A stretch of 62,468 nt of DNA from contig CACMBV010000013.1 in assembly GCA_902612125.1 (NCBI GenBank), positions 1-62,468 on the forward strand. Reading direction: 5' to 3'. The notes beneath the pieces are model-generated. The model saw only the letters and a list, made by a program, of their open reading frames with translations, had not been told where the DNA came from and searched no databases. Position numbers and translations under genes: made by a program. Source of the stretch: an uncultured Verrucomicrobiota bacterium (GTDB taxonomy: Bacteria; Verrucomicrobiota; Verrucomicrobiia; Opitutales; Seribacteraceae). This document shows positions 13,356 to 40,143 of the stretch, piece after piece (within the stretch, counting starts at the first letter, position 1; every line of letters begins with the position of its first letter).

Positions 13356-13721
13356 ATGGGCAAGAGATTTGCCCTTGGGTACCTGATCGTCCTTACCGTT
13401 GTGATGGGGGCTGCCCTGGCCTACGGTTTTCTGGTGGGAGACTTTTGGGCAGATGGAGCGAAACTGATGGACAATCCATGGGGGGTTGTTTCCCTGTTCG
13501 ATGTCTATGTGGGATTCTTTTTCTTTATCGGCTGGGTCTGGTACCGTGAGTGTTGTCTCGGAGCCAAGGCTTTCATGACGGTGGCAATCCTGCTCGGAGG
13601 AAATCTAATCTGTGGGATTTATGCGGTGTTTACCTTGCTTACAAGCAAGGGTGACCCTCAGGTTTTCTTTTTGGGAAACGGGAAGAAAGAAGCTACGATT
13701 TCCGAAACAGATAGTGACTGA
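13356..13721 (+). CDS. DUF1475-like small membrane protein
   Basis: This 121-residue protein has three predicted membrane segments: residues about 5-26 (FALGYLIVLTVVMGAALAYG), 42-65 (VVSLFDVYVGFFFFIGWVWY) and 72-92. ATG 13356 was chosen because GAGGA lies 8 bp upstream and the hydrophobic N-terminus starts there; the frame is open further upstream only as a shadow inside metY. It resembles DUF1475 proteins of unknown function. Its last 29 bp overlap, tail to tail, the end of the convergent methyltransferase gene, leaving no room for an independent terminator. Given that neighbour, a link to membrane-lipid change is possible but not shown. Confidence 0.72.
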   Translation: MGKRFALGYLIVLTVVMGAALAYGFLVGDFWADGAKLMDNPWGVVSLFDVYVGFFFFIGWVWYRECCLGAKAFMTVAILLGGNLICGIYAVFTLLTSKGDPQVFFLGNGKKEATISETDSD

Positions 13722-14733
13722 CCCACCATTCCTGCCCTTTGGCAAATCCGAAAGTCTCGGCACAGGCGAGGAAAAAGATGCGCCAGCGGTGAAAAATCCT
13801 GATGGCTTCATTGGGGCTCATTTCCTTCTCGAAAATGGGTAAGACTTCGGATTTTGTACGATCGAGGTTTTCCAGCCAGCATTCCGAGGTCTTGGCATAA
13901 TGTTGCCCGGACCAACGCCAGCGGGATTCCAGTTCCAGTGACCCGGCGATGCGTAAAAATAATTCATCCGCAGGCATGGTGCCACCGCTAAAAAAATGTT
14001 TCGACATCCAGTCATCCTCGCCATCAACTTCGAAGGGGTAGGAGGTGGAACGATGGCAGAAAACATGGGTGAAGAGTTTGCCTTCTTCTTTGAGCCATGC
14101 ATGAATCCGTCTGAACAAACCCCGGTGGTTGCGGACATGTTCAAACATTTCCACGGAAACCACCCGGTCGAAAGTTTGGTCGGGTTCAAAGGTGTTCACA
14201 TCCGCAGTGACCACCTTAAGGTTAGTCAGTTTTCTTTCCTTCGCCTGTCCCATTATATATTCACGCTGGGAATTGGAATTCGATACTGAGATAATCCTGG
14301 CTTGGGGGAATTGTTTCGCCATCCACAGGGAGAGGGAACCCCATCCACACCCGAGTTCAAGAATCCGCTGCCCATCCTCAAGGTCCGCATGTTCAGAGGT
14401 CAGTTCGAGAGCCCGGTCCTCCGCAGTGGAAAGGTCGCTTACCAGTTCTTCGAAATAGCAGGAGCTGTATTTGAGATTTTTTCCCAAGACCCGGTGATAA
14501 AAAAGGGCAGGCACTTCGTAATGCTGTTCATTGGCTTTGTCAGTTAGCACTGCAAGGGGTGATTCATCCACAGACCGCATATATTCTTCCACCAGTTCCG
14601 CATTGGCTTCGCAATCATCAGTCCGGCATTGTTGAAGGCGTTTACGGCAAAGATTGCGGATTCCGGCCCGGATCAGAAAGTCGGGAACAAATCCGCGTTC
14701 AGCCAGTTCGATAAATGTGTCGGTCAGGCCCAT
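13693..14733 (-). CDS. CFA-family SAM-dependent lipid methyltransferase
   Basis: This is a 346-residue member of the cyclopropane-fatty-acyl-phospholipid synthase family, shorter than classical CFA synthase because the N-terminal lipid-binding domain is reduced. The SAM site is ILELGCGWGSLSLWMA, with later motifs DRVVSVEMFEHVRN and LFTHVFCHR. It is the last gene of an eight-gene operon that already contains a full-length CFA synthase, so it probably makes a different product, for example a methylated rather than cyclopropanated acyl chain. In Rhodobacter a CFA-like methylase in the singlet-oxygen regulon takes part in furan-fatty-acid synthesis, which is a reasonable model here. It starts 3 bp after the DUF1295 gene. 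The family is certain; the product is inferred. Confidence 0.85.
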   Translation of the reverse strand: MGLTDTFIELAERGFVPDFLIRAGIRNLCRKRLQQCRTDDCEANAELVEEYMRSVDESPLAVLTDKANEQHYEVPALFYHRVLGKNLKYSSCYFEELVSDLSTAEDRALELTSEHADLEDGQRILELGCGWGSLSLWMAKQFPQARIISVSNSNSQREYIMGQAKERKLTNLKVVTADVNTFEPDQTFDRVVSVEMFEHVRNHRGLFRRIHAWLKEEGKLFTHVFCHRSTSYPFEVDGEDDWMSKHFFSGGTMPADELFLRIAGSLELESRWRWSGQHYAKTSECWLENLDRTKSEVLPIFEKEMSPNEAIRIFHRWRIFFLACAETFGFAKGQEWWVSHYLFRKS

Positions 14734-14736
14734 GGT

Positions 14737-15537
14737 CTAGGAATCCGCTTTCCGGGGAGTTCGCGGAAAAAAGGAGGAAGTGGTCTTAACATAGTTTTTG
14801 TATTCCTCTCCGCTGGCTTCCAGTTTACGGGCCTCGACGAAGGGAATCCCGGTGACTTTTACGAGAAATAGATAGAGGACGGGGGGAATGAGGAAGAGCC
14901 AGGGGCCACCGTCGGCAAAAAAACCAAGCGGAATATAACCAAGCCATAGAATCCATTCAAAAAAGTAATTGGGATGCCTCGAATATTTCCATAGCCCGGT
15001 GTTGCATACTTCCTTCCGGCTGTCACGATGTTTAAGTTTAAAGGCCCGCAATTGTTTATCCGCCAGGGTTACTCCAACAAAACCAGTAATCCAGATGATC
15101 AGACCGAGGTGGTCCCATACGCCAAGATCGCCCGGGTTTTGCACCAGGATTAAAAAGGGGGAAGCGAAAAGAACTACCCAGAAGGCTTGCACCTGAAAGA
15201 AAAAGAAAAAGCCCAGGTTAGCCTTTTTTCCGAGGTGCTCCCTCAGGTAGGCGTAGCGGGCATCCTCTGGTTTACCCCAACAGCGTCTGAGAAGATAGGT
15301 GCCCAAACGCAGGGACCATACCGCAAGAATTCCTTCCAGCACCGCAAGCCGGGCCGGATGGCACTGGTCTGATTGAATGACCAAAAAGCATAAACCGAGA
15401 ACGCCGACCCCATAAGCCCAGAGGACATCGACATAGGAGGTATTTTTAATAACCAGGGCCACCCCCCACCCAACAGCCATGACCACAGAAGCCCCCAACT
15501 GTCCGAATAAAAGAAGATCAAGCGTGCTCATGTTCAA
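14737..15537 (-). CDS. DUF1295 / steroid 5-alpha-reductase-like membrane protein
   Basis: This 266-residue polytopic membrane protein has about six hydrophobic segments and the C-terminal signature of the DUF1295 and isoprenylcysteine methyltransferase/steroid reductase superfamily: NTGLWKYSRHPNYFFEWILWLGY followed by GIPFVEARK. Members bind NADPH or SAM and act on lipidic substrates; the exact reaction of DUF1295 proteins is not established. The gene overlaps the end of the DUF2878 gene by 20 bp and precedes the CFA-like methyltransferase by 3 bp. DUF1295, DUF2878, DUF1365, CFA synthase and the FAD oxidase occur together in light-stress clusters of many proteobacteria, so a shared lipid-modification pathway is likely. 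Confidence 0.85.
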   Translation of the reverse strand: MNMSTLDLLLFGQLGASVVMAVGWGVALVIKNTSYVDVLWAYGVGVLGLCFLVIQSDQCHPARLAVLEGILAVWSLRLGTYLLRRCWGKPEDARYAYLREHLGKKANLGFFFFFQVQAFWVVLFASPFLILVQNPGDLGVWDHLGLIIWITGFVGVTLADKQLRAFKLKHRDSRKEVCNTGLWKYSRHPNYFFEWILWLGYIPLGFFADGGPWLFLIPPVLYLFLVKVTGIPFVEARKLEASGEEYKNYVKTTSSFFPRTPRKADS

Positions 15538-16054
15538 TGGTTGCGGGGAATTTCAGGTGGAGAAAGTGAAAGGCCATTCCGGCAATCGCCCATTCCACGG
15601 CAATGCCCATGGCCGAGAACCAGGAATGGGTAAATTCGAGCACGCCCAATTGTTGTCCGGACCAATAGGCAATCACCCCGCCAAGGGCAAAACCGATGAT
15701 CGAACGCATACTTTGATCAATAAACCAGGTAAATACGGGCCGTAACATGATGCCAAAACATACCCATAAGCTGATCATCCACAATGGATTACCCCCGATG
15801 TTGGGGTAGGGGGGAAATTGCAAAAGATTAAGTTGAACCAGGGTGGCGTCCCCGAGCATCCCCAAAAAAAGACAAACCACTGCGAAAGGAAGGGAGTTGC
15901 GGAACCGTCCCTTCATCCAGGCCCTGCCACTGACCAACAAGATACCGATGTACGGAGATATTGCAGGTATGGGTGTTTTGATGGCAAGAACGCATAAGAC
16001 CCAGGCTGCCTTAAAGATTAGAATATCGAAGAGAAATGAAAACCTGGCATTCAT
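15518..16054 (-). CDS. DUF2878 membrane protein
   Basis: This is a 178-residue integral membrane protein with four to five predicted helices (for example ILIFKAAWVLCVLAIKT and SLPFAVVCLFLGMLGDATLV). I chose ATG 16054 because it forms an ATGA overlap with the CFA synthase stop, typical of translational coupling; an earlier start would extend into that gene. DUF2878 has no known biochemical function but is a regular member of the CFA/DUF1365/amine-oxidase operons. It may be an anchor or an accessory lipid enzyme. Its C-terminus (IEHEHA) overlaps the DUF1295 gene. Confidence 0.82.
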   Translation of the reverse strand: MNARFSFLFDILIFKAAWVLCVLAIKTPIPAISPYIGILLVSGRAWMKGRFRNSLPFAVVCLFLGMLGDATLVQLNLLQFPPYPNIGGNPLWMISLWVCFGIMLRPVFTWFIDQSMRSIIGFALGGVIAYWSGQQLGVLEFTHSWFSAMGIAVEWAIAGMAFHFLHLKFPATIEHEHA

Positions 16055-17319
16055 GAGGGAAATCCTTTGGCCAATGTACATGCGGGTTTGGTCAGGAGGA
16101 GGTGAATGTCACCGGTGTATCCTTCTTCAAAACCCGCCTCGCAGTAGCATAAATAATAAATCCATGCCCGGCGGAACTGGTCATCATATCCCAGTTTGGC
16201 GATCCTGTCCTCATTTTCCAGAAAACGCAGGCGCCATTCCCGAAGAGTCCGGGCATAATGATAGCCGAAATCAAAAATATTGGTCGGGCGCAGGTCCGAT
16301 TTCTGAACGACGGCTTCCACCATGGCGGAGATGGAGGGAACATGACTGCCCGGAAATACGCGGGTACGAATATAATCAACTTCCTTACAATACTGGGAAT
16401 ATCGATGATCCGGCATGGTGATTGCCTGTATCATGGCGGCTCCATCGGGTCTTAGAAGATCAGCGATCTTGGAAAAATAGGTTGGCAGGTATTCGTGGCC
16501 GACCGCTTCGATCATCTCGATGGAAACCACGCGGTCAAAATGTCCGCTGAGATTGCGGTAATCCTGTTTTACGATGGAGATTCGATCCGCCATGCCCAGG
16601 TTTTCAACCCGATTACGGGCATACTTGAATTGTTCGTCTGAAATGGTCGTGGCGGTAAGCTTGGCTCCGGTTCTTTGGGCAAGCCGGGCGGCAAAACCTC
16701 CCCAACCACACCCAATCTCAAGCACCCGGTGGCCTGAATCAATTTTCAACTGATCAATAATACGGTCATACTTGGCAAGGGAAGCCTCTTCCAGAGTGGT
16801 TTTTTCACTTGCAAAGATTCCGCAGGAATAAGTCATGGTTGGGTCGAGCATCAACTTGTAAAAATCATTACCCAAATCGTAATGGAGGGAGATATTTTTA
16901 CGGCTTCCCTGAATGGTGTTTTTTTGACTGAGAAGGTAGATCCACCGGGCACATTTATTTAAGAGGGTGGCCCAGCCACCTTCCATCCCGTCCATTACCT
17001 GCTGGTTTTGCAGAAAAAATCGGAAAAAACGGACGAGATCAGAGGAGTCCCAGTCACCAGCGGTATAGCTGTCGGCAACCCCGAGGGACCCTCCGAGGCA
17101 GGCCTTGCGAAAAAAGGCACTTCGATGAATCCGCAAATCAGCCTGTAAACCAACCCCATGGTCTTCGCCAAAGGTTTTTTGGCCGGATGAAAATTTGAGC
17201 TGAAGGCAGCCTTTTTCAGATAACTCAAGTTGCCTGTAAAGTGCCTTTTCAAAAAAGCCCATGTTCCCTTCAGTATCTTTGGGATAGTCCACAAATTGAT
17301 CTTCTGCCCGTTCAGTCAT
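16051..17319 (-). CDS. cfa: Cyclopropane-fatty-acyl-phospholipid synthase
   Basis: This is a 422-residue, full-length CFA synthase. It transfers a methylene group from S-adenosylmethionine to the cis double bond of membrane phospholipid acyl chains. Visible elements are the N-terminal lipid-binding domain, the motif NISLHYDLGNDFYKLMLD, the active-site region MTYSCGIF, the SAM site VLEIGCGWGGFAARLA and the conserved SIEMIEAVGHEY. The gene overlaps the DUF1365 gene by 8 bp and the DUF2878 gene by 4 bp. Within the operon its substrate double bonds could be supplied by the desaturase encoded upstream. Making cyclopropane lipids is a known defence against oxidative, acid and membrane stress. Confidence 0.93.
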   Translation of the reverse strand: MTERAEDQFVDYPKDTEGNMGFFEKALYRQLELSEKGCLQLKFSSGQKTFGEDHGVGLQADLRIHRSAFFRKACLGGSLGVADSYTAGDWDSSDLVRFFRFFLQNQQVMDGMEGGWATLLNKCARWIYLLSQKNTIQGSRKNISLHYDLGNDFYKLMLDPTMTYSCGIFASEKTTLEEASLAKYDRIIDQLKIDSGHRVLEIGCGWGGFAARLAQRTGAKLTATTISDEQFKYARNRVENLGMADRISIVKQDYRNLSGHFDRVVSIEMIEAVGHEYLPTYFSKIADLLRPDGAAMIQAITMPDHRYSQYCKEVDYIRTRVFPGSHVPSISAMVEAVVQKSDLRPTNIFDFGYHYARTLREWRLRFLENEDRIAKLGYDDQFRRAWIYYLCYCEAGFEEGYTGDIHLLLTKPACTLAKGFPS

Positions 17320-19326: not shown

Positions 19327-20241
19327 TTACTGATCTTTTGCCTTTTCCTTGACCCAGGCGGGGACCGGACGAAGTTCGCTGACCAAACCGAAAAAAGACA
19401 TCATTCGCAATACAGTATATGTCAAATCGTATTCCCCCTTGAAAAAACCCTGACGGGCAGAACCTGGAAAAAAATGGTGATTGTTGTGCCAACCTTCACC
19501 AAAAGTAAAAAGCGCTACCAAGGAATTATTTCTGCTGTCGTCGCCGGTTTCGAACCTTTTCTTTCCCCACAAATGGGTGAGGGAATTGACCGCAAAAGTG
19601 GCATGGTATAAAAGGATGGTGGGAATCACAAATCCCCAGACAAAGGTCATCATACCATTCATCCCTGACACCGTGCTGAACCAAGTCCATTCCCCCAACA
19701 GGTAGCATCCTCCGCCCCAAATTACCACGGGAATCCAATCATAGCGGTTTATGAAACGAAGTTCGGGAAACTTGAGCCAGTCCGGAATTTCTTTCAGGAA
19801 TGTGGGCACAGCATAATCGGTCATAAACCATAAGGTGTGACTCCAAAATAAACTATTGGTTTTGGGTGAGTGCATGTCTTTCTCAGTGTCAGAGTGACGG
19901 TGATGCCGCCGGTGATGTGCGGCCCACCAAAGAGGCCCCCTCTGTGCGGAACAACATGCAGTGAATGCCCCAAGAAACTGAACAACCCTATTAGTTTTGA
20001 ATGCCCGGTGTGAAAAATAACGGTGGTAAAACGCGGTGATGGCAAACATTCGGACCGAATAGGAAATCACGCATACAAGCAAACATGGCCAAACAAAAGG
20101 TTGCCAGAAACAGAGTAAAAGTAATCCGTGTATGATCAAATAGGGAACACACCGAATCCACTCCACTCTTGCACCTGAAGCGGGAGGTTCTGAGAAGGTC
20201 TCAGGCGGTGGGAGAACCCACTTGGCTATAGTTTTTGACAT
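19327..20241 (-). CDS. Acyl-CoA/phospholipid delta-9-type fatty acid desaturase
   Basis: This 304-residue membrane di-iron desaturase carries the three histidine boxes of the stearoyl-CoA desaturase family: HRYFSH at residues 73-78, HRRHH at 110-114 and HNNHH near residue 256. It has hydrophobic pairs between the boxes and no fused cytochrome b5, as in bacterial DesC types. It inserts a cis double bond using O2 and an external electron donor. Its ATG immediately follows the sigma-factor stop codon with no spacer (TAA-ATG), so it is translationally coupled. It would provide the unsaturated chains used by the two CFA-family enzymes downstream. Confidence 0.92.
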   Translation of the reverse strand: MSKTIAKWVLPPPETFSEPPASGARVEWIRCVPYLIIHGLLLLCFWQPFVWPCLLVCVISYSVRMFAITAFYHRYFSHRAFKTNRVVQFLGAFTACCSAQRGPLWWAAHHRRHHRHSDTEKDMHSPKTNSLFWSHTLWFMTDYAVPTFLKEIPDWLKFPELRFINRYDWIPVVIWGGGCYLLGEWTWFSTVSGMNGMMTFVWGFVIPTILLYHATFAVNSLTHLWGKKRFETGDDSRNNSLVALFTFGEGWHNNHHFFPGSARQGFFKGEYDLTYTVLRMMSFFGLVSELRPVPAWVKEKAKDQ

Positions 20242-21186
20242 TTACGCGGCTGAATCCAAAATGAGTGAAAGTTCAAGAGGACTCATTTTGGTTTTACCAC
20301 GTAAATCTTTTCCTACAAGCTTATCTAGCTGACGAAAATCAAGTTTTCCGCTTTGCATCAAAACTGCCCGCAATTTTCTAAGACCGAGAGCTTCCAATTG
20401 CCGAACCCGTTCGCCCGATACATTCAAGACATCCGCAATTTCGTCCAGCTTCATGGAATCATCCTGTCCAATGCCAAATCTCATCGAAAGTACTTTTCTT
20501 TCGCGCTGGTCAAGAAAACTTAAAGCAACGGACATATCGTCAGAAAGAGAACCGTCTTCACGGTAAGATTGATTAACCTCTTCCTCGGCAGACATCATGT
20601 CAGAAAGTGTTTGGTTGGAATCTTCACCGAGGGGTTCATCTAGAGAAAGAGTACTGGCAGGTGCGAATTTGACCCGGTTAGAAAGGTTGCGGTCTTTGCC
20701 CAAGATTTCATTTACTTCCGCATCAGAAGGGTTTCTACCTAGATCGACCTGTAGTTGAGTCCGCACCAAATTCTCCTTGCGTTTTCCTTGGGAAACATCG
20801 TGCGGTACTGCTACGGCGCTTGACATTTTACCGATCAAACGCTGGATACGCTGACGAATCCACCACGCAGCGTAGGTACTTAGTTTAATACCTCTGGTGT
20901 GGTCAAACTTGTCAAGGGCCACTACCAATCCGTGGATACCTTCCGCCATGATGTCTTCCATGGGGACGCAGGTTTGGCGAAATTTGAGGGCGATGGAAGC
21001 AACAAGACGCACATGCCTTTCAATGAGTTCTTTACGAGCTTCATCACTGCCTTTAGACATTTTAATGAATAATTTATCACACTCCTCTTTCGTAGGGGGT
21101 GCCATACGTGAACGCTCGGAGATGAATCTACCAATCGGATCTAAGGTGCCGTCTTGATTAGTTGTGTGGGATTTAGTGTTTGCCAT
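20242..21186 (-). CDS. Sigma-70 family (group 2-like) RNA polymerase sigma factor
   Basis: This 314-residue sigma factor has region 1.2 (DPIGRFISERSRM), region 2 (IERHVRLVASIALKFR ... GIHGLVVALDKFD), the -10 recognition helix KLSTYAAWWIRQRIQR, region 3 and a complete region 4 ending GERVRQLEALGLRKLRAVL. It lacks the long region 1.1 of the housekeeping factor. ATG 21186 was chosen because residues before it (MILELQPF) are not family-like. A C-terminal tail of about 45 residues after region 4 is extra. It is the first gene of the lipid operon and lies just behind an ECF-like promoter, so it may be the second step of a sigma cascade, like RpoE to RpoHII in Rhodobacter. That cascade is inference. 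Confidence 0.9.
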   Translation of the reverse strand: MANTKSHTTNQDGTLDPIGRFISERSRMAPPTKEECDKLFIKMSKGSDEARKELIERHVRLVASIALKFRQTCVPMEDIMAEGIHGLVVALDKFDHTRGIKLSTYAAWWIRQRIQRLIGKMSSAVAVPHDVSQGKRKENLVRTQLQVDLGRNPSDAEVNEILGKDRNLSNRVKFAPASTLSLDEPLGEDSNQTLSDMMSAEEEVNQSYREDGSLSDDMSVALSFLDQRERKVLSMRFGIGQDDSMKLDEIADVLNVSGERVRQLEALGLRKLRAVLMQSGKLDFRQLDKLVGKDLRGKTKMSPLELSLILDSAA

Positions 21187-21192
21187 AACAGA

Positions 21193-21224
21193 TAATAGAA
21201 CGAAAGGTTGTAATTCTAAGATCA
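21193..21224 (-). promoter_or_regulatory. Predicted ECF-type promoter of the sigma/lipid operon
   Basis: On the minus strand a TGATCT (21224-21219) is followed, after 16 bases, by CGTTCTATTA (21202-21193). The same TGATCT-N16-CGnTCTATnA arrangement occurs before the photolyase operon at 27769-27800. Spacing and the CG-starting -10 fit ECF sigma promoters. The start codon lies only 6 bases after the -10 extension and has no Shine-Dalgarno sequence, so the transcript may be leaderless or nearly so. The motif is seen directly; promoter function is inferred. Confidence 0.5.
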
Positions 21225-21272: not shown

Positions 21273-22328
21273 GTGACCCTGCACCCGCTAAAGGGCTTCC
21301 CAAGTACCCTTATCACCCAAACATTTTTTTTGAAAAACGAAGTTCTGGAATCAAGAATTCAAGGATTGTACTGTCCGGCGGGTGATTTTTTTATTGATCC
21401 CAGGGGAAATGTCCCTCGGGCCGTAGTCACGCATGCACACAGCGATCATGGCAGACCGGGACACGGCTCTTATCTTTGCTCTGATACCTGTAAGCCTCTG
21501 CTAAAAATAAGAATTGGGCAGGATTGTAGAATCGAAAGTCTTCCTTTTGGAAAGCAAATCAAGATTGGGGAAGCAATCGTTTCCTTTCATCCTGCCGGTC
21601 ATATTCTGGGATCCGCTCAAATCCGGATTGAAGTGAGGGGAAAAGTATGGGTGGTTAGCGGGGACTACAAGCCGCAAGCTGATCAGACTTGTGAAGCTTT
21701 CGAACTGGTAAAATGTCATGGATATGTGAGTGAGTGCACCTTTGGTCTTCCCGTTTACCGATGGCAGCCTGAACAAATGATTCATCAACAAATCAATCAT
21801 TGGTGGGCAGAAAATGCCAGGGATGGCAGGCCCTCCCTTCTTTTTGCATACTCCCTCGGCAAAGCTCAACGGGTTTTGGCAGGACTGGATAACAATCTTG
21901 GTCAGGTTTTTGTACACGGCGCGGTTTATCCTTTTCTCGAGCACTACGAGAGGGCCGGTGCCAGACTACCTGCGGTTATCAAAGTGGAAAGAGGACAGGA
22001 TCACGACTTTAATCAGTCAATGATTATTGCCCCCCCTGCAGTTGAGGATTCGACCTGGACCCGTAAATTTCGGTCTGCCCGCAAGGGGTTTGCATCGGGG
22101 TGGATGGCTGTCCGCGGAGCCAGGAGGAGGAGAAACCTTGACCGTGGGTTCATCCTTTCCGATCATGCGGACTGGGATGGCCTGCTTGAGGTAATTAAAG
22201 CTACGGAAGCAGAGGAGATCAAGGTGACCCATGGAAACGGGGATGCTCTGACCCGCTATTTGCAGGAACAGGGCTCCAATTGCACGGTACTGGACGGCGC
22301 CGGAATCCGGGGAGAGGAGGAGGAATGA
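21273..22328 (+). CDS. Ligase-associated DNA exonuclease (metallo-beta-lactamase/beta-CASP fold)
   Basis: This roughly 350-residue protein resembles the mRNA 3'-end-processing-factor-like nucleases encoded beside bacterial ATP-dependent DNA ligases. The metal-binding motif is VVTHAHSDHGRPGHG, with later ligands in FHPAGHILGSAQ, VVSGDYK and GFILSDHADWDGLL, and the family stretch TFGLPVYRW. It is predicted to trim DNA ends before ligation. GTG 21273 is the longest start, but the conserved protein begins around LYCPAGDFFIDP, so TTG 21330 is possible. The stop overlaps the ligase start by 4 bp. It is divergent from the sigma/lipid operon, next to a possible shared control region. Confidence 0.88.
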   Translation: MTLHPLKGFPSTLITQTFFLKNEVLESRIQGLYCPAGDFFIDPRGNVPRAVVTHAHSDHGRPGHGSYLCSDTCKPLLKIRIGQDCRIESLPFGKQIKIGEAIVSFHPAGHILGSAQIRIEVRGKVWVVSGDYKPQADQTCEAFELVKCHGYVSECTFGLPVYRWQPEQMIHQQINHWWAENARDGRPSLLFAYSLGKAQRVLAGLDNNLGQVFVHGAVYPFLEHYERAGARLPAVIKVERGQDHDFNQSMIIAPPAVEDSTWTRKFRSARKGFASGWMAVRGARRRRNLDRGFILSDHADWDGLLEVIKATEAEEIKVTHGNGDALTRYLQEQGSNCTVLDGAGIRGEEEE

Positions 22329-23986
22329 AAAAATTCGCCTCTCTTTTTCATGATCTTGATTCCATGACCAAAACGAATGACCGTCTGGACCGTTTAGTTG
22401 TCTACTTTGAAAATGCATGTCCCGGGGATTCCATTTGGGTCTGTTGGTTCTTGGCGGGGAACCGAATTAAAGGAGCCATCAAAACCGGCGAGCTTCGGTC
22501 TTTTTTGTCGGAAAGAGTAAATCTGCCCCTCTGGCTGGTTGAAGAATGTCATGACCGGGTGGGTGATCTGGCAGAAACCGTTTCCCTGCTGGCTGGTTCC
22601 AATACCGTAAACAAACCAATCAGTCTTGACGAAACCATCCGAAAATTTCTTATGCCTTTGCGGACCATGGATACCGAAGAGAGAAAAGAAACTCTTTACC
22701 GGGCATGGGATTATCTTGCCATGGATGAAATGTTGCCCTTTCACAAGCTCCTGACCGGCGGTTTTCGAATGGGTGTTTCCAAAGGCAATCTTTGCAAGGC
22801 TCTTGCCCGTGTGGGCAAGGTGGAGCCGGCAGTGATTGCCCAGAGGTTGTCCGGCAGCTGGAATTGTGATGATCTGTCGTTGGAAGACATTCTTGACCCG
22901 TCCGATGAAGCAAAGGATCAAATCAATCGTCCCTATCCCTTTTGTCTCGCCGCTCCGCTTCAGGAAAAAGCGGAATCCCTTGGAAACATTGAGGACTGGC
23001 AGGTTGAATGGAAATGGGACGGTATCCGGGCCCAACTTTTGACCACAGTCGGGGGATCCGGTATGCTATGGTCGAGGGGGGAAGAGTCGATGGATGAATC
23101 TTTCCCCGAAGTGCTTGAATGTATCCCTCACCTGCCCCCGGGTTTGTGCATGGACGGAGAAATTCTTGCCTGGGGCAGGGAGGGATTGCGTTCGTTTTCC
23201 CGTTTGCAGAAGAGACTTGGACGCAAAAATCCCGGGCCATCCATTCAAAAAAAAGAGCCCGTCCGGTTTCAGGCTTATGACTTACTGCGCGTTCATGGTG
23301 AGGATTTACGTTTGATGCCCATGGAAAAAAGAAGAGCAAGGCTGGAAGATTTACTGAAAAAAGTACCGGATCATTTGCCTCTTGGTATATCCTCCCTGAT
23401 CAAGGAAAAGAGCTGGGAGCAACTTGAACTTCGCAGGGAGGAATCAAGAGACCGGGGAGTGGAGGGCTTCATGCTGAAAAAAAAGGATTCAAAGTATGAG
23501 AGCGGACGGGTGAGAGGTTCCTGGTTTAAATGGAAGGTGGATCCTTTTTTGGCCGACATGGTGGTGGTGAGTGCCCAGCTGGGGCATGGAAAAAGAGCGA
23601 ATCTTTATTCCGATTATTCATTGGCGGTCTGGGATGAGTCCGGCAAACTGGTCACAGTGGCCAAGGCATATTCAGGATTGAGTAATGACGAGATCGAAGA
23701 AGTCGACAAATTCGTGAGGAAAAATATCACCGGTAAGTTTGGACCGGTTCGTGAGGTTACCCCCAGTCTGGTTTTTGAAATTGCCTTCGAGGGTGCCCAG
23801 TCATCAGGGAGGCATAAATCTGGGGTAGCTTTGCGATTTCCAAGAATTCAACGCTGGCGTAAGGATAAAAAAATCGAGGAAGCGGATACCCTTGAAGTGA
23901 TCCGGGGATATGCCGGAATGAATGATGAGGTATGCAATGAGGCGGGACCCAAGAGCGATGCGGATGGAAATTTGCTTCTTTTTTAG
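22325..23986 (+). CDS. ATP-dependent DNA ligase (exonuclease-associated type)
   Basis: This 553-residue DNA ligase has an N-terminal DNA-binding domain (starting MKKFASLFHDLDSMTKTN), an adenylation domain with the nucleotidyl lysine in EWKWDGIRAQLL, and a C-terminal OB domain with FKWKVDPFLADMV and FEIAFEGAQSS-type motifs. It seals nicks using ATP and is distinct from the essential NAD-dependent LigA. The start ATG 22325 overlaps the exonuclease stop (ATGA) and is preceded by a strong purine-rich ribosome site (GGAGAGGAGGAGG). It is paired with the exonuclease as in many proteobacteria. Its place among photolyases and translesion genes suggests repair after light or oxidative damage. Confidence 0.93.
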   Translation: MKKFASLFHDLDSMTKTNDRLDRLVVYFENACPGDSIWVCWFLAGNRIKGAIKTGELRSFLSERVNLPLWLVEECHDRVGDLAETVSLLAGSNTVNKPISLDETIRKFLMPLRTMDTEERKETLYRAWDYLAMDEMLPFHKLLTGGFRMGVSKGNLCKALARVGKVEPAVIAQRLSGSWNCDDLSLEDILDPSDEAKDQINRPYPFCLAAPLQEKAESLGNIEDWQVEWKWDGIRAQLLTTVGGSGMLWSRGEESMDESFPEVLECIPHLPPGLCMDGEILAWGREGLRSFSRLQKRLGRKNPGPSIQKKEPVRFQAYDLLRVHGEDLRLMPMEKRRARLEDLLKKVPDHLPLGISSLIKEKSWEQLELRREESRDRGVEGFMLKKKDSKYESGRVRGSWFKWKVDPFLADMVVVSAQLGHGKRANLYSDYSLAVWDESGKLVTVAKAYSGLSNDEIEEVDKFVRKNITGKFGPVREVTPSLVFEIAFEGAQSSGRHKSGVALRFPRIQRWRKDKKIEEADTLEVIRGYAGMNDEVCNEAGPKSDADGNLLLF

Positions 23987-27800: not shown

Positions 27801-27836
27801 AGTTATTACTTTATCCTTCTCTTGCCTTTTTTGAAT

Positions 27837-27850: not shown

Positions 27851-27862
27851 CAAAAGGTCATG

Positions 27863-28378
27863 ATGAACCGCGGAGGAAAAAGAATGGGTGCCGGTCGCCC
27901 CAGGGGTACCAATCACTACGGAGAGCCCACCAAACCGGTGCGTATTCCCGTGAGTAAAATTGATCGCGTGCTTCGCTTTGTCCGCGAGCGTGAAGATAGG
28001 ATTCCCCTCTATGGAAATGAAGTGCCCGCCGGATTTCCCTCACCGGCTGATGATTATGCCGAAGGGGTTCTTGATTTGAATGCTCATCTCGTACGCGAAC
28101 CCACCGCCACTTTTTTTGTGCGAGCCCGGGGGGATTCGATGATTGGGGCGGGGATTCATGATGGTGATCTGCTGGTGGTTGACCGCAGCCTGGAAGCCAC
28201 CAATGGCAAGGTGGTGATTGTTTCGATTAACGGAGAGCTAACCGTAAAAAGGCTCCGCCAAGCCAAAGGCCGAACCTGGCTTATACCCGAAAACCCCGAC
28301 TACCCCCCCATAGATTTTCAGGAACAGGATGATACCCATTTATGGGGAGTGGTCACGAATGTGGTCCACTCCCTGTGA
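27863..28378 (+). CDS. umuD: UmuD/LexA-like S24 serine peptidase
   Basis: This 171-residue UmuD homologue is the accessory subunit of DNA polymerase V. The C-terminal peptidase domain has the catalytic Ser in RGDSMIGAG and the Lys in GELTVKRL. The self-cleavage site is Ala-Gly in [13 protein letters not shown], close to the CGFPSPAADY of E. coli UmuD. Unlike E. coli UmuD, it has a basic N-terminal extension of about 30 residues with an AT-hook-like RMGAGRPRG core, which could contact DNA. The second ATG (27863) is preferred because AAAAGG is then 5 bp away; ATG 27860 is the alternative. The end overlaps the umuC start by 4 bp (GTGA). Likely SOS-induced. Confidence 0.9.
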
Positions 28379-30965: not shown

Positions 30966-31498
30966 CCCTGAAGAGCTTCTTCGATTGCCTTGATTAACTT
31001 TCTGGAAGTCGGAGAGGTCATGCTGCCAAAACGGTCGATGGGATTGCCGTCCTTACCCACAAGGATTTTTCCAAAATTCCATTTAACATTTCCCTTGAGG
31101 GGTCCGTTCTCACCAATGATGTCTTTGTAGATTGGATGGCGATTTGGTCCGTTCACATCGATCTTGGAATACATGGGGAAGCTGACACCGTATTTAGTGG
31201 AGCAAAATTCCTTGATTTCAGATTCGGAACCAGGTTCCTGTCCTCCAAACTGGTTGCAGGGAAAACCGCAAACGACCAAGCCTTTGTCCTTGTATTTATC
31301 GTATAGTTCCTCAAGTCCCTTGTACTGACGGGTAAAACCGCAACGGGAAGCGACATTTACCATTAGAATGACTTTACCCTTATGCTCGGCAAGAGTGGTG
31401 GACTCTCCGTCAATTGATTTCAGGTCGTGGTCGTAAATGGATTTTGCGGTGGCTGTCATAATGATTGCAAGATTAAGAAGAAAAATAAGTGTCTTCAT
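30962..31498 (-). CDS. Exported glutathione peroxidase family protein (Cys type)
   Basis: This 178-residue peroxidase has a signal peptide at residues 1 to about 18 (LIFLLNLAIIMTATA) and the catalytic set of the family: Cys in NVASRCGFTRQY, Gln in FPCNQFGGQEPG and Trp in VKWNFGKIL. A second cysteine (GFPCNQ) could serve as the resolving thiol, so thioredoxin-type reduction is more likely than glutathione. It removes hydrogen or lipid peroxides in the envelope. It is in an operon with a SOUL haem protein (4-bp ATGA overlap upstream) and the propeller lipoprotein. The setting in a photo-oxidative island fits lipid-peroxide defence. Confidence 0.92.
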   Translation of the reverse strand: MKTLIFLLNLAIIMTATAKSIYDHDLKSIDGESTTLAEHKGKVILMVNVASRCGFTRQYKGLEELYDKYKDKGLVVCGFPCNQFGGQEPGSESEIKEFCSTKYGVSFPMYSKIDVNGPNRHPIYKDIIGENGPLKGNVKWNFGKILVGKDGNPIDRFGSMTSPTSRKLIKAIEEALQG

Positions 31499-32091
31499 GG
31501 TTGTTTTGGTGATTTAGGTTGAGATGGAATGTTGGTTGGTTGAATTTTAATCCGTCGTATGGGTATGTGAATTTCTGATCTTTTGAAGGGACCGGGGATA
31601 AAAGGCCCGTTCCAGTAAACGCCGTAAGGTGCCCCGTCGGGTTCAAAAGTGGTATTTTGATCAAGCCACTGGGTAAGCCGACTTACATTATCCAGAAATT
31701 TTTTTTCAGAATAGCTTCCACGGATACCGATCGAGACAACCTTACGAGGAGGAATTTTGCGTATCTGAACCTGATCCGAAGATTCAATTTTTCTGGAAAG
31801 ATCTTTACTCCCAACAAAAAATCTCATTTTGCCCGGATTTATGTCCGCTTCCACAGGGGTAGTCATGGAAATATCATTTTGGTTGATGTACCGGAATAAT
31901 TTTCGAAACAGCCCGTTGTTTTCACTAAAGTAGGATTTGTCCGTAGACGCCTCCATCGCCATTCGCACGGGGAGTTCCAAAACCACAATTTTACCCACCG
32001 GTGTTTTATCATGCATGTTTTCGTACGCAAACAAACTCAAGGAAAGCATTGCTGAGGCGATGAAGAGTAAAAATTTCAATAACCTATTCAT
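31495..32091 (-). CDS. SOUL-family haem-binding-like protein
   Basis: This 198-residue exported protein has a hydrophobic signal sequence (residues 4-22) and the SOUL/HBP core: a region around SYFSENNGLFRKLFRYINQ, then ISMTTPVEAD and a late PDGAPYGVYWNGPFIPG segment. SOUL proteins bind haem or tetrapyrroles. In bacteria they often sit in light-stress gene clusters, and haem scavenging is a plausible role because free porphyrins generate singlet oxygen. It is the first gene of the operon with glutathione peroxidase and the propeller lipoprotein. A TGATCT-N16-CG motif lies immediately upstream (32092-32115), although its -10 would touch the start codon. Confidence 0.85.
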   Translation of the reverse strand: MNRLLKFLLFIASAMLSLSLFAYENMHDKTPVGKIVVLELPVRMAMEASTDKSYFSENNGLFRKLFRYINQNDISMTTPVEADINPGKMRFFVGSKDLSRKIESSDQVQIRKIPPRKVVSIGIRGSYSEKKFLDNVSRLTQWLDQNTTFEPDGAPYGVYWNGPFIPGPFKRSEIHIPIRRIKIQPTNIPSQPKSPKQP

Positions 32092-32115
32092 CGTTTCATA
32101 TGTAGGTTTAGATCA
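32086..32115 (-). promoter_or_regulatory. Weaker copy of the TGATCT-N16-CG motif
   Basis: On the minus strand, TGATCT (32115-32110) is followed after 16 bases by CGATGAAT (32093-32086). The -35-like half and the spacing match the two stronger sites exactly; the -10 half is weaker and covers the annotated ATG of the SOUL gene. If functional, translation would have to start further inside or the mRNA would begin within the present reading frame. Confidence 0.25.
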
Positions 32116-36425: not shown

Positions 36426-36431
36426 CTATTC

Positions 36432-36460: not shown

Positions 36461-36502
36461 GGGGAGGTTGCTCTACAGAGAAAAGACTAATAGGAAAAAC
36501 CT

Positions 36503-36961
36503 GTGCACCATTTGAAACAAATACAAACCCTGCCAGTCGATCGGGAAATTCTCTGGGAATTTATTTCGGTTCCCCAAAACCTGAACAAGATTACTCCTCC
36601 GGAAATGGCCTTCGAAATTATAGGGGAACCACCGGAAAAAACCTTTGCGGGACTGCTTCTGGAGTATCGGGTGAAAGTCCCGCTGCTTGGCTGGTCGAGC
36701 TGGCTCACTGAAATAAAATATGTGGAGGAGGGATTTTCATTTATGGATGAGCAACGTGTGGGTCCTTATAAGTTGTGGTTGCATACTCATAAGTTGGAAG
36801 ATACCGATGAGGGTACCCGAATGACTGATGATATCCGTTACCTCGTTCCATTTGGTCCAATCGGCTCGCTAGCAAATGCCCTTTATGTGGGAAGGACCCT
36901 TCGCCAAGTTTTTCACTACCGAAGGGTGAAAATGGAGGAAATTTTTGGCAAAGCCCAATGA
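36503..36961 (+). CDS. SRPBCC (START-like) family protein
   Basis: This 152-residue protein has the helix-grip SRPBCC pattern: an N-terminal strand (LKQIQTLPVDREILWEFISVPQNLNKITPP), conserved central strands and a long C-terminal helix (FHYRRVKMEEIFG). Such folds bind hydrophobic ligands. Close relatives are regularly found in photolyase/CFA stress clusters. The start is a GTG with no strong ribosome site. The stop overlaps the DUF2071 start by 4 bp (ATGA), so the two are co-translated. A ligand cannot be named. Confidence 0.82.
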   Translation: MHHLKQIQTLPVDREILWEFISVPQNLNKITPPEMAFEIIGEPPEKTFAGLLLEYRVKVPLLGWSSWLTEIKYVEEGFSFMDEQRVGPYKLWLHTHKLEDTDEGTRMTDDIRYLVPFGPIGSLANALYVGRTLRQVFHYRRVKMEEIFGKAQ

Positions 36962-37704
36962 TCCAAACTTTTTTGGATAAATTCATGGTGCAGCACTGGA
37001 GTGATCTGCTTCTCCTTCACTGGCCCGTTTCGCCGGAAATTCTTCGCCCCACCATCCCTGATGATCTGGACTTGGATCTTTTTGAAGGACAGGCATGGGC
37101 CAGTGTGGTTGGTTTTCATCTGTCTGGATTACGGATACATCCCGTTCGTTGGATTCCATGGGGAGAGTTTGATGAGGTAAACCTGAGAACTTATGTAAAA
37201 AGGGCGGATGGGAAAAGAGGCGTCTGGTTTTATTCCTTGGATTCAACGGATATATTTGCGGTGTTCGGTGCGCGCATTCTCTACGGACTCGGCTATCGTT
37301 CAGCCCATATAAACAGATCTTCAACCGCTCGGGCCATCTTTTATGAATCAACCACTCATCGGATATTCAGAAAGGTACCTGCCAGATTTGGTGCTCAGTT
37401 GGATAAATCCGTTGGTTCAGCAAGGACTGCCCGGGGACCGCTCGATCAGTTTTTACTTGAACGGTACCGGTTTTGGACAAGAAGAACGGCAGGGAGCAGA
37501 TCAAGCTCTGCTCAGGTCAGGCATCGTCCTTATGATGCGGTGAGGTTACAAAGCACCGAGTATCGGGGAAGTTTGTTTGAAGCTTTTGGATTGCCCGAAC
37601 CACAGAATCCACCGGACATAGCTCATTACTGCCGGGGATTTTCAGTGGAGGCATCCGCCCCGAATTGGCTTTATAAAACCGCGGGCCAGGCAAACCAAAG
37701 GTAG
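36958..37704 (+). CDS. DUF2071 (YqjF-like) family protein
   Basis: This 248-residue protein has the DUF2071 pattern: an N-terminal LLLHWPVSPEILRPTIPDDLDLDLFEGQAWASVVGFHL, then VNLRTYVKRADGKRGVWFYSLD. The family (acetoacetate-decarboxylase-like fold) has no firm function. The middle part, from about residue 105 to 190, is unusually Arg/Ser-rich (SVGSARTARGPLDQ, TRRTAGSRSSSAQ) and does not read like the family, while the end (RGFSVEASAPNWL) is more normal, so a local pair of frameshifts is possible. The last 34 bp overlap the end of the convergent anti-sigma gene. Confidence 0.72.
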   Translation: MIQTFLDKFMVQHWSDLLLLHWPVSPEILRPTIPDDLDLDLFEGQAWASVVGFHLSGLRIHPVRWIPWGEFDEVNLRTYVKRADGKRGVWFYSLDSTDIFAVFGARILYGLGYRSAHINRSSTARAIFYESTTHRIFRKVPARFGAQLDKSVGSARTARGPLDQFLLERYRFWTRRTAGSRSSSAQVRHRPYDAVRLQSTEYRGSLFEAFGLPEPQNPPDIAHYCRGFSVEASAPNWLYKTAGQANQR

Positions 37705-38876
37705 GTAAAGTCTTTGATTCTGTTGATGCCGTAAATCTTTCTTTCCTGCAGGTCTTTGAGATCCGTGGACCGGTGACCCCGTAACATGGAATCTTCAATC
37801 AATTTCCACAAATAATAATCCTGCAATGCCATGCCTGATATCACCGAAGATCCTGTGATTATTTCTTGGAGTGAGCGGTGTTCATGATCTGACATTTTAG
37901 CAGTGGCCACGGCTAGAGTTGCACCGGGAATGGCATCTTTCAAGAGCTCCATGTGAAAGTCACCTGTGGAGGACCGTGGTGCAAGTAGATTAGCCAAACA
38001 ATACATATTCGCATCATACTCGGCAAATTCAATGCATCTTTCGGTCACGGGGCCGTCAAAGAAATGGCCGCATTTTACCTGACCCTTTGATGAGAAATAT
38101 GCATGTTCAGCCCCCCACCATTTGGTTTGCAGAAGTCCTGCTCCGTGTAATCGGAGTTTTTCATCTTCGATCAGACCTTCCGGGTCAAGGTCCTTAAAGG
38201 ATGCTCTCATAATTTTTAATTGATCACGGCAAAGGTAAAACATCCTGCGGGTATCCGCCAGGTTTGCCTTATTTTCCCGCAAACGGTCCGAAAAGAAAGA
38301 GAGCGATGGGAGAGTGGCAAGGGCGGTACGCAATACGGAACGAGAGACCGGATTTTCACTGTTGAAATCATGTCCCAGAATTTGATCAACTCCTTGACTT
38401 AGGGATGGCTTTGAGCGGAGAACGGATTGAAGATCATCAAATTCTCCGGCAGCCGCTTTGGAATTACCCGAAATCAGAGGGAGAAGATTCTGTAAATGAT
38501 CGTAACTGGCAAGAACTTCGTTTTTGATGGCTCCTTGTTGAATGTCGTTAATGTCGACCGAGGCATCCCCTCCTTGATAACGATTCATGGAAAAGGAGAA
38601 ATTATTGCGCAGACGGGAAATGTCGTCAGTGCTCAGAAAGGGATCAAAATCCATTTTGGGTTCGCAATATTCCATGACCCTCGAACGAACTTCGTTGCTT
38701 AGAGAGGCAGGCACTGCGGTCATCGAAAGACTTGCACAATCCTCCTGTGCTTCGACTAAAAACTTGCGGACATCATCATCCTCTTCCAACCGTGCTTCGA
38801 AAAGAAGGGAGTCTTCCTTGGGTAAGACACCAAGAGTGTAATCGAGAGCTGTTTGCTTAAGAGATTCCAATTTCAA
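37671..38876 (-). CDS. Putative cytosolic anti-sigma factor with unknown sensor domain
   Basis: This 401-residue protein lies 86 bp downstream of an ECF sigma gene. Residues about 5-65 (LKQTALDYTLGVLPKEDSLL ... EARLEEDDDVRKFLVEAQE) look like the helical N-terminus of RskA-type anti-sigma factors, without the zinc-binding HxxxCxxC. Residues about 80-401 match nothing I recognise. This part is largely helical, has no transmembrane segment, and contains several cysteines and histidines (VKCGHFF, TERCIEF, MYCLAN). It is therefore probably a cytoplasmic anti-sigma factor with its own sensor. It is not a ChrR cupin. The start is TTG 38876 (or TTG 38870). The anti-sigma role is inferred from position and the N-terminal pattern. 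Confidence 0.6.
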   Translation of the reverse strand: MKLESLKQTALDYTLGVLPKEDSLLFEARLEEDDDVRKFLVEAQEDCASLSMTAVPASLSNEVRSRVMEYCEPKMDFDPFLSTDDISRLRNNFSFSMNRYQGGDASVDINDIQQGAIKNEVLASYDHLQNLLPLISGNSKAAAGEFDDLQSVLRSKPSLSQGVDQILGHDFNSENPVSRSVLRTALATLPSLSFFSDRLRENKANLADTRRMFYLCRDQLKIMRASFKDLDPEGLIEDEKLRLHGAGLLQTKWWGAEHAYFSSKGQVKCGHFFDGPVTERCIEFAEYDANMYCLANLLAPRSSTGDFHMELLKDAIPGATLAVATAKMSDHEHRSLQEIITGSSVISGMALQDYYLWKLIEDSMLRGHRSTDLKDLQERKIYGINRIKDFTYLWFAWPAVL

Positions 38877-38962
38877 TACTTACTAATGGAATTACTCTGC
38901 AATACAAACCTGTGAGGCTGGTTGTGCCAGGCAATCAATGTTTTTAAGCTATTCATACATGG

Positions 38963-39520
38963 TCAGGTACGTAAGGTGGCCAGGGTGTGTCTAAGTTTTT
39001 CTATTCCCAGACGAATGCGTGATTTGACTGTCCCAAGAGAGAGTTCCAACCGTTCAGAAATTTCTTCATGATTTAAACCCTTGAAATAGGAAAGTTCCAA
39101 AACTTTCACCTGCTCGGGGGGAAGCTTTTCAAAAGCCCGCCTCAGATGACTACGCTCATCACTGACCGTTGCCTGTTCCGCTCCATCAGAGGCATTCTGA
39201 TCCTCTCTTCCTGAGAGAATCTCATCCGATTCACCACGATCGACTCTTCTTTTCCGGGAACGTACACGGTCAATGCTACGGTTGCGGGTCAAAACCAACA
39301 GCCAGCTACTAAATTTCCCCTTGTCCGGTGCATAGGATTCAGGCTTCCGCCAAAGAAAGGCAAAGATGTCCTGAATTACCTCTTCAGCTTCCCAACGATC
39401 GCCAAGAATTTCCAGGGATAAGGAAAACATTGCACCGGCAAACCCGTCATACAAATCCACTAAGGCGGAAGAATCTCCGTCTTTTATTTTGTACCATAAG
39501 TCATTTTCGATCGTTGGCAT
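38963..39520 (-). CDS. ECF-family RNA polymerase sigma factor
   Basis: This 185-residue sigma factor has only regions 2 and 4. Region 2 includes EAEEVIQDIFAFLWRKPESY and the -10 contact segment FSSWLLVLTRNRSIDRVRSRKRR. Region 4 has LPPEQVKVLELSYFKGLNHEEISERLELSLGTVKSRIRLG, similar to SigK/RpoE-like ECF groups. It would direct RNA polymerase to stress promoters and be held by the anti-sigma candidate downstream. Its own upstream region contains only a weak resemblance to the TGATCT-N16-CG motif, so autoregulation is unproven. It is the most likely reader of the promoters at 21193, 27769 and possibly 32086. Confidence 0.92.
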   Translation of the reverse strand: MPTIENDLWYKIKDGDSSALVDLYDGFAGAMFSLSLEILGDRWEAEEVIQDIFAFLWRKPESYAPDKGKFSSWLLVLTRNRSIDRVRSRKRRVDRGESDEILSGREDQNASDGAEQATVSDERSHLRRAFEKLPPEQVKVLELSYFKGLNHEEISERLELSLGTVKSRIRLGIEKLRHTLATLRT

Positions 39521-39753
39521 AAGTTATCTTTCATCCGATAGGATAGTCTGTTTCTGATGAAAGAAGGCGTTTACCGCAATTGATTTTTTGTAGTCTGTTG
39601 CTGATTTTCCCTAAAAATGAGAAATAAAAAGGCTCCTTACAAGGTGCATAACGGATGCTTTCTGGATTTGCGGGCCAATTGGCTAATTTTTCCTTTTCCA
39701 CATTCTTTGCAAATGTTGGCATCCTCACCCAATGAGGAATGTTTTTGATCCGC

Positions 39754-40143
39754 TTATCCTTCTTCCATTTGATAAGCCTGAAGATCTGTAAGCTTGACTA
39801 CCGCGAGGGCTGATTCCTCACAGGCGGCCAATTTTACCTTGGGAGCGATTCCCGCTTCCAGGGCTTCCTGCCAACGTCCGGCACACAAACACCAGCAATC
39901 CCCCTCCTTCAATCCCGGGAAGTTATATTCCGGCCTGGGAGTGGAAAGATCATTACCCATCGCCTGACTGAAGGCCAGAAATTCAGTGGTCATACGGGCA
40001 CAGATCACATGCATGCCTCCGTCATTTTTGTCGGTTTCACAAGTGCCATTTCGGTACCATCCAGTGCTCAATTTATTGCAGCAAGGTTGCAAGGGTTCCC
40101 CCATGACATTTTTCGGTCCTTCATTTTTAATTGGTGCTATCAT
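39754..40143 (-). CDS. DUF2237 family protein
   Basis: This 129-residue protein matches the DUF2237 family over its whole length: NVMGEPLQPCCNKLSTGWYRNGTC, GGMHVICARMTTEFLAFSQAMGNDLSTPRPEYNFPGLKEGD and the end WCLCAGRWQEALEAG. Conserved cysteines (PCC, GTC, VICA, CWCLC) suggest metal or redox binding. The function is unknown, although the family is frequently encoded near photolyase or light-stress genes. It stands alone, followed by about 230 bp without a clear gene before the ECF sigma gene. Confidence 0.88.
   Translation of the reverse strand: MIAPIKNEGPKNVMGEPLQPCCNKLSTGWYRNGTCETDKNDGGMHVICARMTTEFLAFSQAMGNDLSTPRPEYNFPGLKEGDCWCLCAGRWQEALEAGIAPKVKLAACEESALAVVKLTDLQAYQMEEG

Follow-up and report, generated by a model that had tools for sequence, protein, structure and literature searches.

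Regulators of the RpoE/ChrR type, in which an extracytoplasmic function (ECF) sigma factor of group ECF11 is paired with the soluble anti-sigma factor ChrR, are described from Rhodobacter, Shewanella and Vibrio, where their targets include, in one or other of these bacteria, UfaD, UfaO, UfaM, a photolyase, a short-chain dehydrogenase/reductase (SDR), glutathione peroxidase (GPX) and a second sigma factor (excerpts of PMC7074977, PMC4336711, PMC7380195, and PMC5241685). The RpoE regulon of Rhodobacter is listed with an SDR, the Ufa genes, phrA and rpoHII, and in R. capsulatus the GPX gene adjoins rpoE-chrR (excerpts of PMC7074977). In Shewanella, RpoE2 promoters precede GPX, photolyase/cfa and photolyase/SDR operons, rpoE2-chrR is autoregulated, and its transcription is induced by hydrogen peroxide (excerpts of PMC4336711). 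The enzymes UfaM, UfaD and UfaO constitute a pathway to a furan fatty acid, UfaO contains DUF1365, and the ufa genes of R. palustris have neighbouring locus numbers (excerpts of PMC7380195). Here, we describe a comparable gene set in a 62,468-nucleotide stretch of DNA (the window) from an uncultured bacterium of the Opitutales (Verrucomicrobiota). The window forms contig 13 of a draft genome (2.41 Mb, 64% complete). A block of 28 genes in the window (13693-40143) is likely to be the core of one photo-oxidative stress regulon, whose ECF sigma factor would be held by an apparently soluble anti-sigma factor with an RskA-type domain. The bacteria that carry the block are probably marine, judging by record names such as TMED. 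A literature search, conducted mostly outside subscription journals, returned no title on this gene set in Verrucomicrobia or Opitutales.

Three putative operons behind a common promoter

Pfam and NCBIfam scans of the window proteins, by which gene families were called, bore out the families that a sequence-only reading had named in the block. Its lipid part comprises the CMAS2, DUF1295, DUF2878, CFA, DUF1365, FAD oxidoreductase and membrane desaturase genes together with a sigma-70 factor. The middle contains a ligase-associated exonuclease, an ATP-dependent ligase, two photolyases, an SDR, UmuD/UmuC, a PQQ-type beta-propeller protein, GPX and a SOUL protein; the right part an AlkB-type oxygenase, an HDOD protein, a pirin, a renalase-like FAD protein, an outer-membrane protein and a 152-aa protein without a named family; and the right end DUF2071, the candidate anti-sigma factor, the ECF sigma factor and DUF2237. 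Upstream regions of orthologues revealed a motif, TGATCY-N16-CGWT, that precedes the sigma-70, SDR and SOUL genes. The promoters and the genes of the putative operons behind them are as follows.

21199..21224, minus strand: ECF-type promoter TGATCT-N16-CGTT before the sigma/lipid operon, in 18/20 contexts
20242..21186, minus strand: second sigma factor, RpoD/RpoS-like, heading the lipid operon (ATG 21186)
19327..20241, minus strand: membrane fatty-acid desaturase, adjoining the sigma gene in 29/30 loci, the other being cut by a contig end
18076..19311, minus strand: FAD oxidoreductase, UfaD homologue, 36-40% identical to proteobacterial plasmid genes
17312..18076, minus strand: DUF1365 protein, UfaO homologue (Pfam; 26-35% identity, four plasmids)
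16051..17319, minus strand: CFA-family methyltransferase, UfaM homologue (Pfam; 40-43% identity, two plasmids)
15518..16081, minus strand: DUF2878 protein (Pfam), also in a Pseudoalteromonas ChrR cluster
14737..15537, minus strand: DUF1295 protein (Pfam), present on Burkholderia/Caballeronia plasmids
13693..14733, minus strand: second CFA-family methyltransferase (CMAS2), 43-47% identity on three Burkholderiaceae plasmids with Ufa genes
27775..27800, minus strand: ECF-type promoter TGATCT-N16-CGAT before the SDR-photolyase operon, in 21/21 contexts (spacer 15-17) or 20/21 (spacer 16)
27053..27766, minus strand: SDR, heading the photolyase operon (Pfam; gene order)
25605..27056, minus strand: photolyase 1, best PDB match 4u63 (named DNA photolyase)
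24000..25562, minus strand: photolyase 2, eukaryote-type (6-4)/animal-cryptochrome-like, best PDB match 6fn0
32090..32115, minus strand: ECF-type promoter TGATCT-N16-CGAT before the SOUL-GPX operon, in 11/24 contexts
31495..32091, minus strand: SOUL-family protein, likely start TTG 32079
30962..31498, minus strand: glutathione peroxidase
29631..30899, minus strand: PQQ-type beta-propeller protein, possibly the third gene of the SOUL-GPX operon

Motif counts refer to 770,713 bp of context with 30 genes examined. The contexts are 28 sequences that represent 27 genomes, namely the window's own and those of 26 relatives, one of which (G005) contributes two. With a spacer of 15-17, there are 70 matches vs 24.3 expected from first-order random sequences, and 20 of the 70 lie elsewhere than at the SDR gene (21/21), the sigma gene (18/20) and the SOUL gene (11/24). 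With the spacer fixed at 16, 62 matches were obtained vs 8.6 expected; these three genes account for 49 of them, and the other 13 are near chance. The N16 motif was found at none of the other 27 of the 30 genes examined, which rules it out as a general feature of the block, and it never precedes the exonuclease-ligase, umuDC, alkB, pirin, renalase-like, HDOD and DUF2071 genes in these contexts. Because the motif was derived from the same upstream regions, the enrichment counts are not independent and serve as description only. Independent support for the promoter is provided by three other observations. The -10 box continues downstream as T-A-T, a feature that was not imposed (T 89%, A 78%, and T 85% of 47 distinct sites), so that it reads CGWTNTAT; the strict form has only two matches in the entire 2.41-Mb own genome, which are the sigma-gene and SDR promoters; and a second family, f18, has just two strict matches in 52,100 bp from two genomes, which lie upstream of GPX, one in each genome.

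In -35 box and 16-bp spacing, the window motif resembles the RpoE/ChrR promoter, TGATCC-N16-CGTAAT, as published for RpoE2/ChrR of Shewanella, and the -10 box differs, being CGWTNTAT instead of CGTA. This -35 box and spacing are also present before plasmid-borne ECF-ChrR genes. The published TGATC...CGTA form itself was considered for the block genes and rejected: it has four matches in the window, none of them at the three promoters, where CGWT is found instead. Since the listed GTG of the sigma gene (21225) falls inside the promoter and the listed ATG of the SOUL gene falls inside the -10 box, ATG 21186 and TTG 32079 are the likely starts; together with 27766 for the SDR gene, these likely starts on the minus strand lie 12 (21186), 8 (27766) and 10 (32079) bases past CGWT, and transcripts might therefore be leaderless.

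As the promoter precedes three operons only, about 14 of the 28 genes look like one regulon. The proposal of one stress island is thus supported for the three promoter-linked operons and is too wide where it takes in the genes named above as never preceded by the motif, several of which are missing in some relatives. In promoter and gene content, the operons match the core RpoE/ChrR regulon, i.e., the Ufa genes, photolyase, SDR and second sigma factor. Homologues of UfaD, UfaO and UfaM occur together in the window, and the order FAD enzyme-DUF1365-CFA gene as well as DUF1365 as the domain of UfaO are shared with the furan fatty acid pathway; the comparison was made with the equivalent plasmid genes, at 26-43% identity. 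The additional desaturase, DUF1295, DUF2878 and CMAS2 genes set the window operon apart, and its lipid product is predicted from the genes. A second sigma factor is present, as had been proposed, and it scores higher as RpoD/RpoS than as RpoH: in NCBIfam, cyanobacterial RpoD/SigA-type, RpoS and RpoD models score 170-179 bits and RpoH 116, all below their cut-offs.

The ECF sigma factor and its putative anti-sigma factor

The regulator pair is encoded at the right end of the block.

38963..39520, minus strand: ECF sigma factor, 185 aa, proposed master regulator (Pfam/NCBIfam)
37671..38876, minus strand: anti-sigma factor, with an RskA-type domain at residues ~10-72 and a C-terminal module (C-module) at ~108-401; start uncertain, TTG listed

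Of five Sigma70_r4_2 matches in the own genome, the ECF is the best. A tree of 31 ECF proteins, most deep branches of which are unresolved, places four ChrR-linked ECFs together with an unannotated Photobacterium sequence in one supported clade (100/98) and the nine ECFs of the block outside it. The nine join a single long-branched row at 93/96, which falls short of firm support; the RskA label of the Opitutales rows was assigned by eye. Among PDB entries, SigK ranks at the top (82 bits, vs 80 for Rhodobacter RpoE), and the tree does not separate the RskA-linked branches from one another. Upstream of the ECF gene (39520, minus strand), many relatives share a conserved box, AAAAAATC..TTGCGG..CGCTTATT, which is unlike the regulon promoter.

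The neighbouring gene had been named a candidate anti-sigma factor, and this assignment is supported: although its NCBIfam match is weak (26 bits vs a cut-off of 100), the first 76 residues align to eight RskA-type domains with an hhalign probability of 97.8 (E 1.1e-12), vs a probability of 2 for four ChrR N-domains and below 3 for eight unrelated families. The zinc motif H...C..C is absent in 25/25 sequences. The maximal 19-residue hydropathy of these 25 sequences is 0.55-1.68, vs 1.73-2.21 in RskA-type controls, so that the protein appears to be soluble, without a clear membrane helix, one sequence (1.68) coming close to the lowest control (1.73). In one relative (G028, L114 10001-11195), the anti-sigma gene is broken across two frames. 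A search of the own genome for Cupin_7, the ChrR-type cupin, gave no match at E 0.001 (in a genome that is 64% complete), and the pirin of the block stays below the model cut-off with 20 of 27 bits. The pair is thus distinct from RpoE/ChrR, with an ECF beyond the ChrR-linked clade and an anti-sigma domain of RskA type that has no zinc motif and is accompanied by no cupin match; by that domain, the pair is probably of the SigK/RskA type. The proposed verrucomicrobial counterpart of RpoE/ChrR with a different sensor is partly supported: the effectors, the -35 box, the 16-bp spacing and the lack of a Cupin_7 match agree with it, and the regulators point to another lineage. An anti-sigma factor that is soluble in RpoE/ChrR and apparently soluble here is a further likeness, whereas the second sigma factor is RpoHII there and RpoD/RpoS-like here.

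RskA-type pairs stand beside such a gene set elsewhere, too. The sigK locus of M. tuberculosis likewise encodes an FAD enzyme, a DUF1365 protein and an enzyme of the CFA type. On plasmids of Burkholderia anthina and Caballeronia, an ECF/membrane-RskA pair (ECF18/ECF19) adjoins DUF1295, a CMAS2 homologue (47% identity in B. anthina, 43% in Caballeronia) and UfaD-UfaO-UfaM, and within ~21 kb the Burkholderia plasmid also carries an SDR, a MerR protein, DUF2878, a photolyase, a fasciclin protein and a second sigma factor. On four plasmids, three of them with ChrR in view, an FAD gene beside DUF1365 is 36-40% identical to the window enzyme; a Pseudoalteromonas plasmid row, read from homology and annotation, runs ECF-ChrR-DUF523/DUF1722-photolyase-NTF2-SDR-UfaD-UfaO-UfaM-DUF2878. 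In four plasmid stretches, two of which overlap, GCATCC-N16-CGTA has nine matches vs 0.84 expected, and six lie within 200 bp of listed gene starts: DUF1295 (2), UfaD (2), ECF (1) and fasciclin (1). As four of these six sites were known before counting, this is not a blind test; a Cupriavidus stretch with lipid genes and no ECF in view has no such site. The plasmid sites share with the window motif the N16 spacer and the CG of the -10 box and differ in the -35 box, GCATCC there and TGATCY here. Since plasmid RskA-type pairs stand by the same lipid genes, such a pairing is in itself no novelty. The Opitutales version is distinguished by the C-module, along with the RpoD/RpoS-like sigma gene at the head of the operon: the plasmid anti-sigma factor has 244 aa and a membrane helix, whereas that of the Opitutales has ~400 aa, an unrelated C-module and no clear helix, and the second sigma factor of Burkholderia is ECF-like (34% identical to the ECF of the block).

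The C-module occupies ~300 residues in place of the membrane and outer parts of RskA, with a mean column identity of 60% (21 sequences), and neither a significant Pfam match nor a PDB profile match was found for it. Its AF2 model (pLDDT 84.5, pTM 0.86) was compared by Foldseek; the 50 of 391 matches listed are histidine kinases, ChpT-like phosphotransferases, phytochromes and a hybrid regulator, and among them the best E is 3.1e-4, four are below 0.001, TM (target length) is at most 0.46 and the rmsd is 7.7-24.5 A. The full-length model gave no Foldseek match below 0.001. Homology to histidine kinases at the sequence level is not supported, with an hhalign probability of 0.06 for the full-length profile against 26 kinases, and the histidine-kinase/ChpT-like fold, suggested weakly by the model, serves as a lead only. 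H244, W253, H258, C281, W394 and W397 are invariant, and C269 and C293 are so within the family and nearly so once f18 is included. It is conceivable, though we would rather doubt it, that the RskA-type domain is fused to a dead histidine-kinase-like (DHp-CA, ChpT-like) module as the first of a new class, a cytoplasmic photo-oxidation sensor triggered through these conserved oxidisable residues, by which the regulon would have been re-plugged from the envelope to a cytosolic switch.

Conservation in relatives and competing explanations

Orthologues of the second sigma factor (20242; at least 50% identity) are present in 31 of 42 family genomes, the own genome counted, and the anti-sigma gene in 28. 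In 17 of the 31 both genes are on the same contig, in eight on different contigs, and in six the anti-sigma gene was not found. Downstream of the sigma gene, the desaturase comes next in 29 of the 30 loci retrieved and the FAD enzyme after it in 27; contig ends account for the exceptions. A search of 383 other genomes of the class for the sigma factor (E 1e-55) had no hit, and as this draw evidently lacks other gene-bearing members of the family, the zero only bounds its spread outside the family. Named records with the anti-sigma gene (n = 31) are assembled or single-cell genomes of Verrucomicrobia, Opitutia, Opitutae or Opitutales in 30 cases and Longimicrobiales in one; the latter, a 4.4-kb contig (L124), resembles genus g3 sequences at its start and is possibly misbinned.

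Gene order within the block is preserved in four genera, all from a single Opitutales family (28 contexts); conservation of the neighbourhood, one of the points on which the sequence-only reading had staked its proposal, thus was found. The exonuclease-ligase, photolyase 2, umuDC, HDOD, pirin, alkB and DUF2071 genes are variably missing among relatives. In genus g4 (two genomes), the block is most reduced, DUF2878 not being found in one, and retains the lipid operon, the sigma gene, SDR-photolyase, PQQ, GPX, SOUL, the renalase-like gene, the 152-aa unknown and the ECF/anti-sigma pair.

How these parts might work together can be outlined. At rest, the ECF (38963-39520) would be bound by the anti-sigma factor (37671-38876) via the RskA-type domain. 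Reactive oxygen species or products of photo-oxidation would be the most likely signal, which would act from the cytoplasm on the C-module and free the ECF, and RNA polymerase with the ECF would read TGATCY-N16-CGWTNTAT and transcribe the three operons. Operon 1 (sigma, desaturase, UfaD-UfaO-UfaM, DUF2878, DUF1295, and CMAS2) might yield membrane lipids, furan-type or methylated in another way, by which oxidants are quenched or absorbed, operon 2 (SDR-photolyases) would repair UV lesions and operon 3 (SOUL-GPX) could handle haem and peroxide. The RpoD/RpoS-like sigma factor from operon 1 might relay the signal to a second tier, like RpoHII in Rhodobacter. In the course of evolution, the membrane helix and outer part of RskA would have been replaced by another module.

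Several observations weigh against this scheme. Strict motif matches number 91 in the 42 family genomes, many outside the block, vs nine for the reversed pattern, whose CTAG biases this control towards low counts. The ECF gene lacks the motif in 24/24 contexts, whereas Shewanella RpoE2-ChrR is autoregulated, and the Caballeronia plasmid ECF gene likewise has no GCATCC-N16-CGTA site. The SOUL gene has no site in 13/24 contexts, including all five of g3 and g4. The Ufa operon of f18 is without a strict site in 2/2 genomes (a relaxed site is present in one of the two) and is not headed by a sigma gene. That the motif is read by this ECF rather than by other ECF-like factors is suggested by linkage and analogy.

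The block could mainly be a relic of synteny in a lineage that rearranges slowly, its genes answering to several independent regulators instead of forming one regulon. Indeed, the right flank is syntenic inside the window's genus, for which reason synteny of the block at that level proves little, one left-flank gene (Cys/Met metabolism) remains near the block in other genera, half of the genes stand outside the promoter-sharing operons, and umuDC has a palindrome of its own. We nevertheless regard this as unlikely: the right-flank genes tested were not found in the contexts from other genera, though the block persists there, the three operons have a common promoter never found at the other 27 genes examined, and the same gene families cluster in unrelated bacteria. 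Less likely still is that the promoter is read by the RpoD/RpoS-like sigma factor, as autoregulation, and that the ECF/anti-sigma pair serves another response. The presence of the motif at the sigma gene (18/20 contexts) and its absence at the ECF gene (0/24) would suit such an arrangement, but f18 has an ECF/anti-sigma pair and a GPX site with no sigma gene at the Ufa operon, and RpoD-like sigma factors recognise other promoter boxes. Moreover, the motif is of the ECF-type form, as are RpoE2/ChrR promoters (excerpts of PMC4336711).

Two further alternatives, each of which we hold to be possible but not favoured, concern the signal. The C-module might not be the sensor itself and might dock a partner, e.g., a phosphorelay protein or a protease, with the sensor elsewhere. 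Its weak ChpT/histidine-kinase-like fold would fit, and so would a class of soluble partner-switch anti-sigma factors that have no sensory role, as far as described in excerpts of PMC8999054; on the other hand, Pfam detected no response-regulator domain among the block proteins scanned, the similarity in fold is slight, and kinase profiles did not align. Likewise, the inducing cue could be general peroxide or envelope stress in place of light-borne damage: GPX, SOUL and lipid enzymes suit peroxide stress, and hydrogen peroxide is the inducer named for rpoE2-chrR of Shewanella (excerpts of PMC4336711), against which stands photolyase 1 after the SDR gene in all 21 contexts that show the latter. 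One regulon under an ECF with an RskA-domain partner thus stays our preferred explanation. If it is correct, ChrR-type and RskA-type pairs, with unrelated anti-sigma factors, would govern much the same light-damage regulon via similarly built promoters, and the Opitutales would have rebuilt the RskA-type partner without a membrane anchor and with an undescribed C-terminal part, offering a testable route to what cells measure in photo-oxidative stress. Ufa-type lipid genes would be extended to Verrucomicrobiota, and the promoter could be used to seek the regulon in uncultured genomes.

Photolyases and other genes of the block

Photolyase 1 is presumably of the class III CPD type, to which we take 4u63 to belong. 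The slot after it is filled by the (6-4)-like photolyase in the ten contexts of the window's genus that show the slot, and by a DPRP-family photolyase in 5/5 g2 and 2/4 g3 contexts showing the operon; one DPRP-family copy (PF04244; L093 11666-13210, minus strand) was scanned and scored 241 bits. We assume that the HHLGRH stretch of photolyase 2 is akin to the repair motif of (6-4) photolyases/cryptochromes and that the DPRP family comprises bacterial (6-4) photolyases, in which case unrelated (6-4) enzymes were possibly swapped within one operon. Gloeobacter is among the few bacteria with a eukaryote-like 6-4 homologue (excerpts of PMC9498864). A LitR/CarH-type MerR light regulator was sought in the own genome and yielded one marginal MerR match (E 9e-4, 68-aa frame), from which absence cannot be concluded as the genome is incomplete.

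Three further features of the block stand outside the promoter-sharing operons.

21273..23986, plus strand: exonuclease-ligase pair, without the common promoter and missing from some relatives
27860..29616, plus strand: umuDC, without the common promoter and with its own palindrome upstream
36503..37704, plus strand: 152-aa unknown and DUF2071, often adjoining the ECF/anti-sigma pair

The palindrome, TTTGAA-N13-TTCAAA (27830-27854), lies between the SDR gene and umuD and is perhaps an SOS-type operator; a loose form is present in 12/18 contexts in which both genes are adjacent, and matches across the whole window are not above chance. A conserved GTCAAGGGGAGGTTGC-like stretch (36425-36503) separates the divergent genes for the outer-membrane protein and the 152-aa unknown. 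To the right of the block, an open frame of 2064 aa (48100-54294, plus strand) begins within a low-GC stretch.

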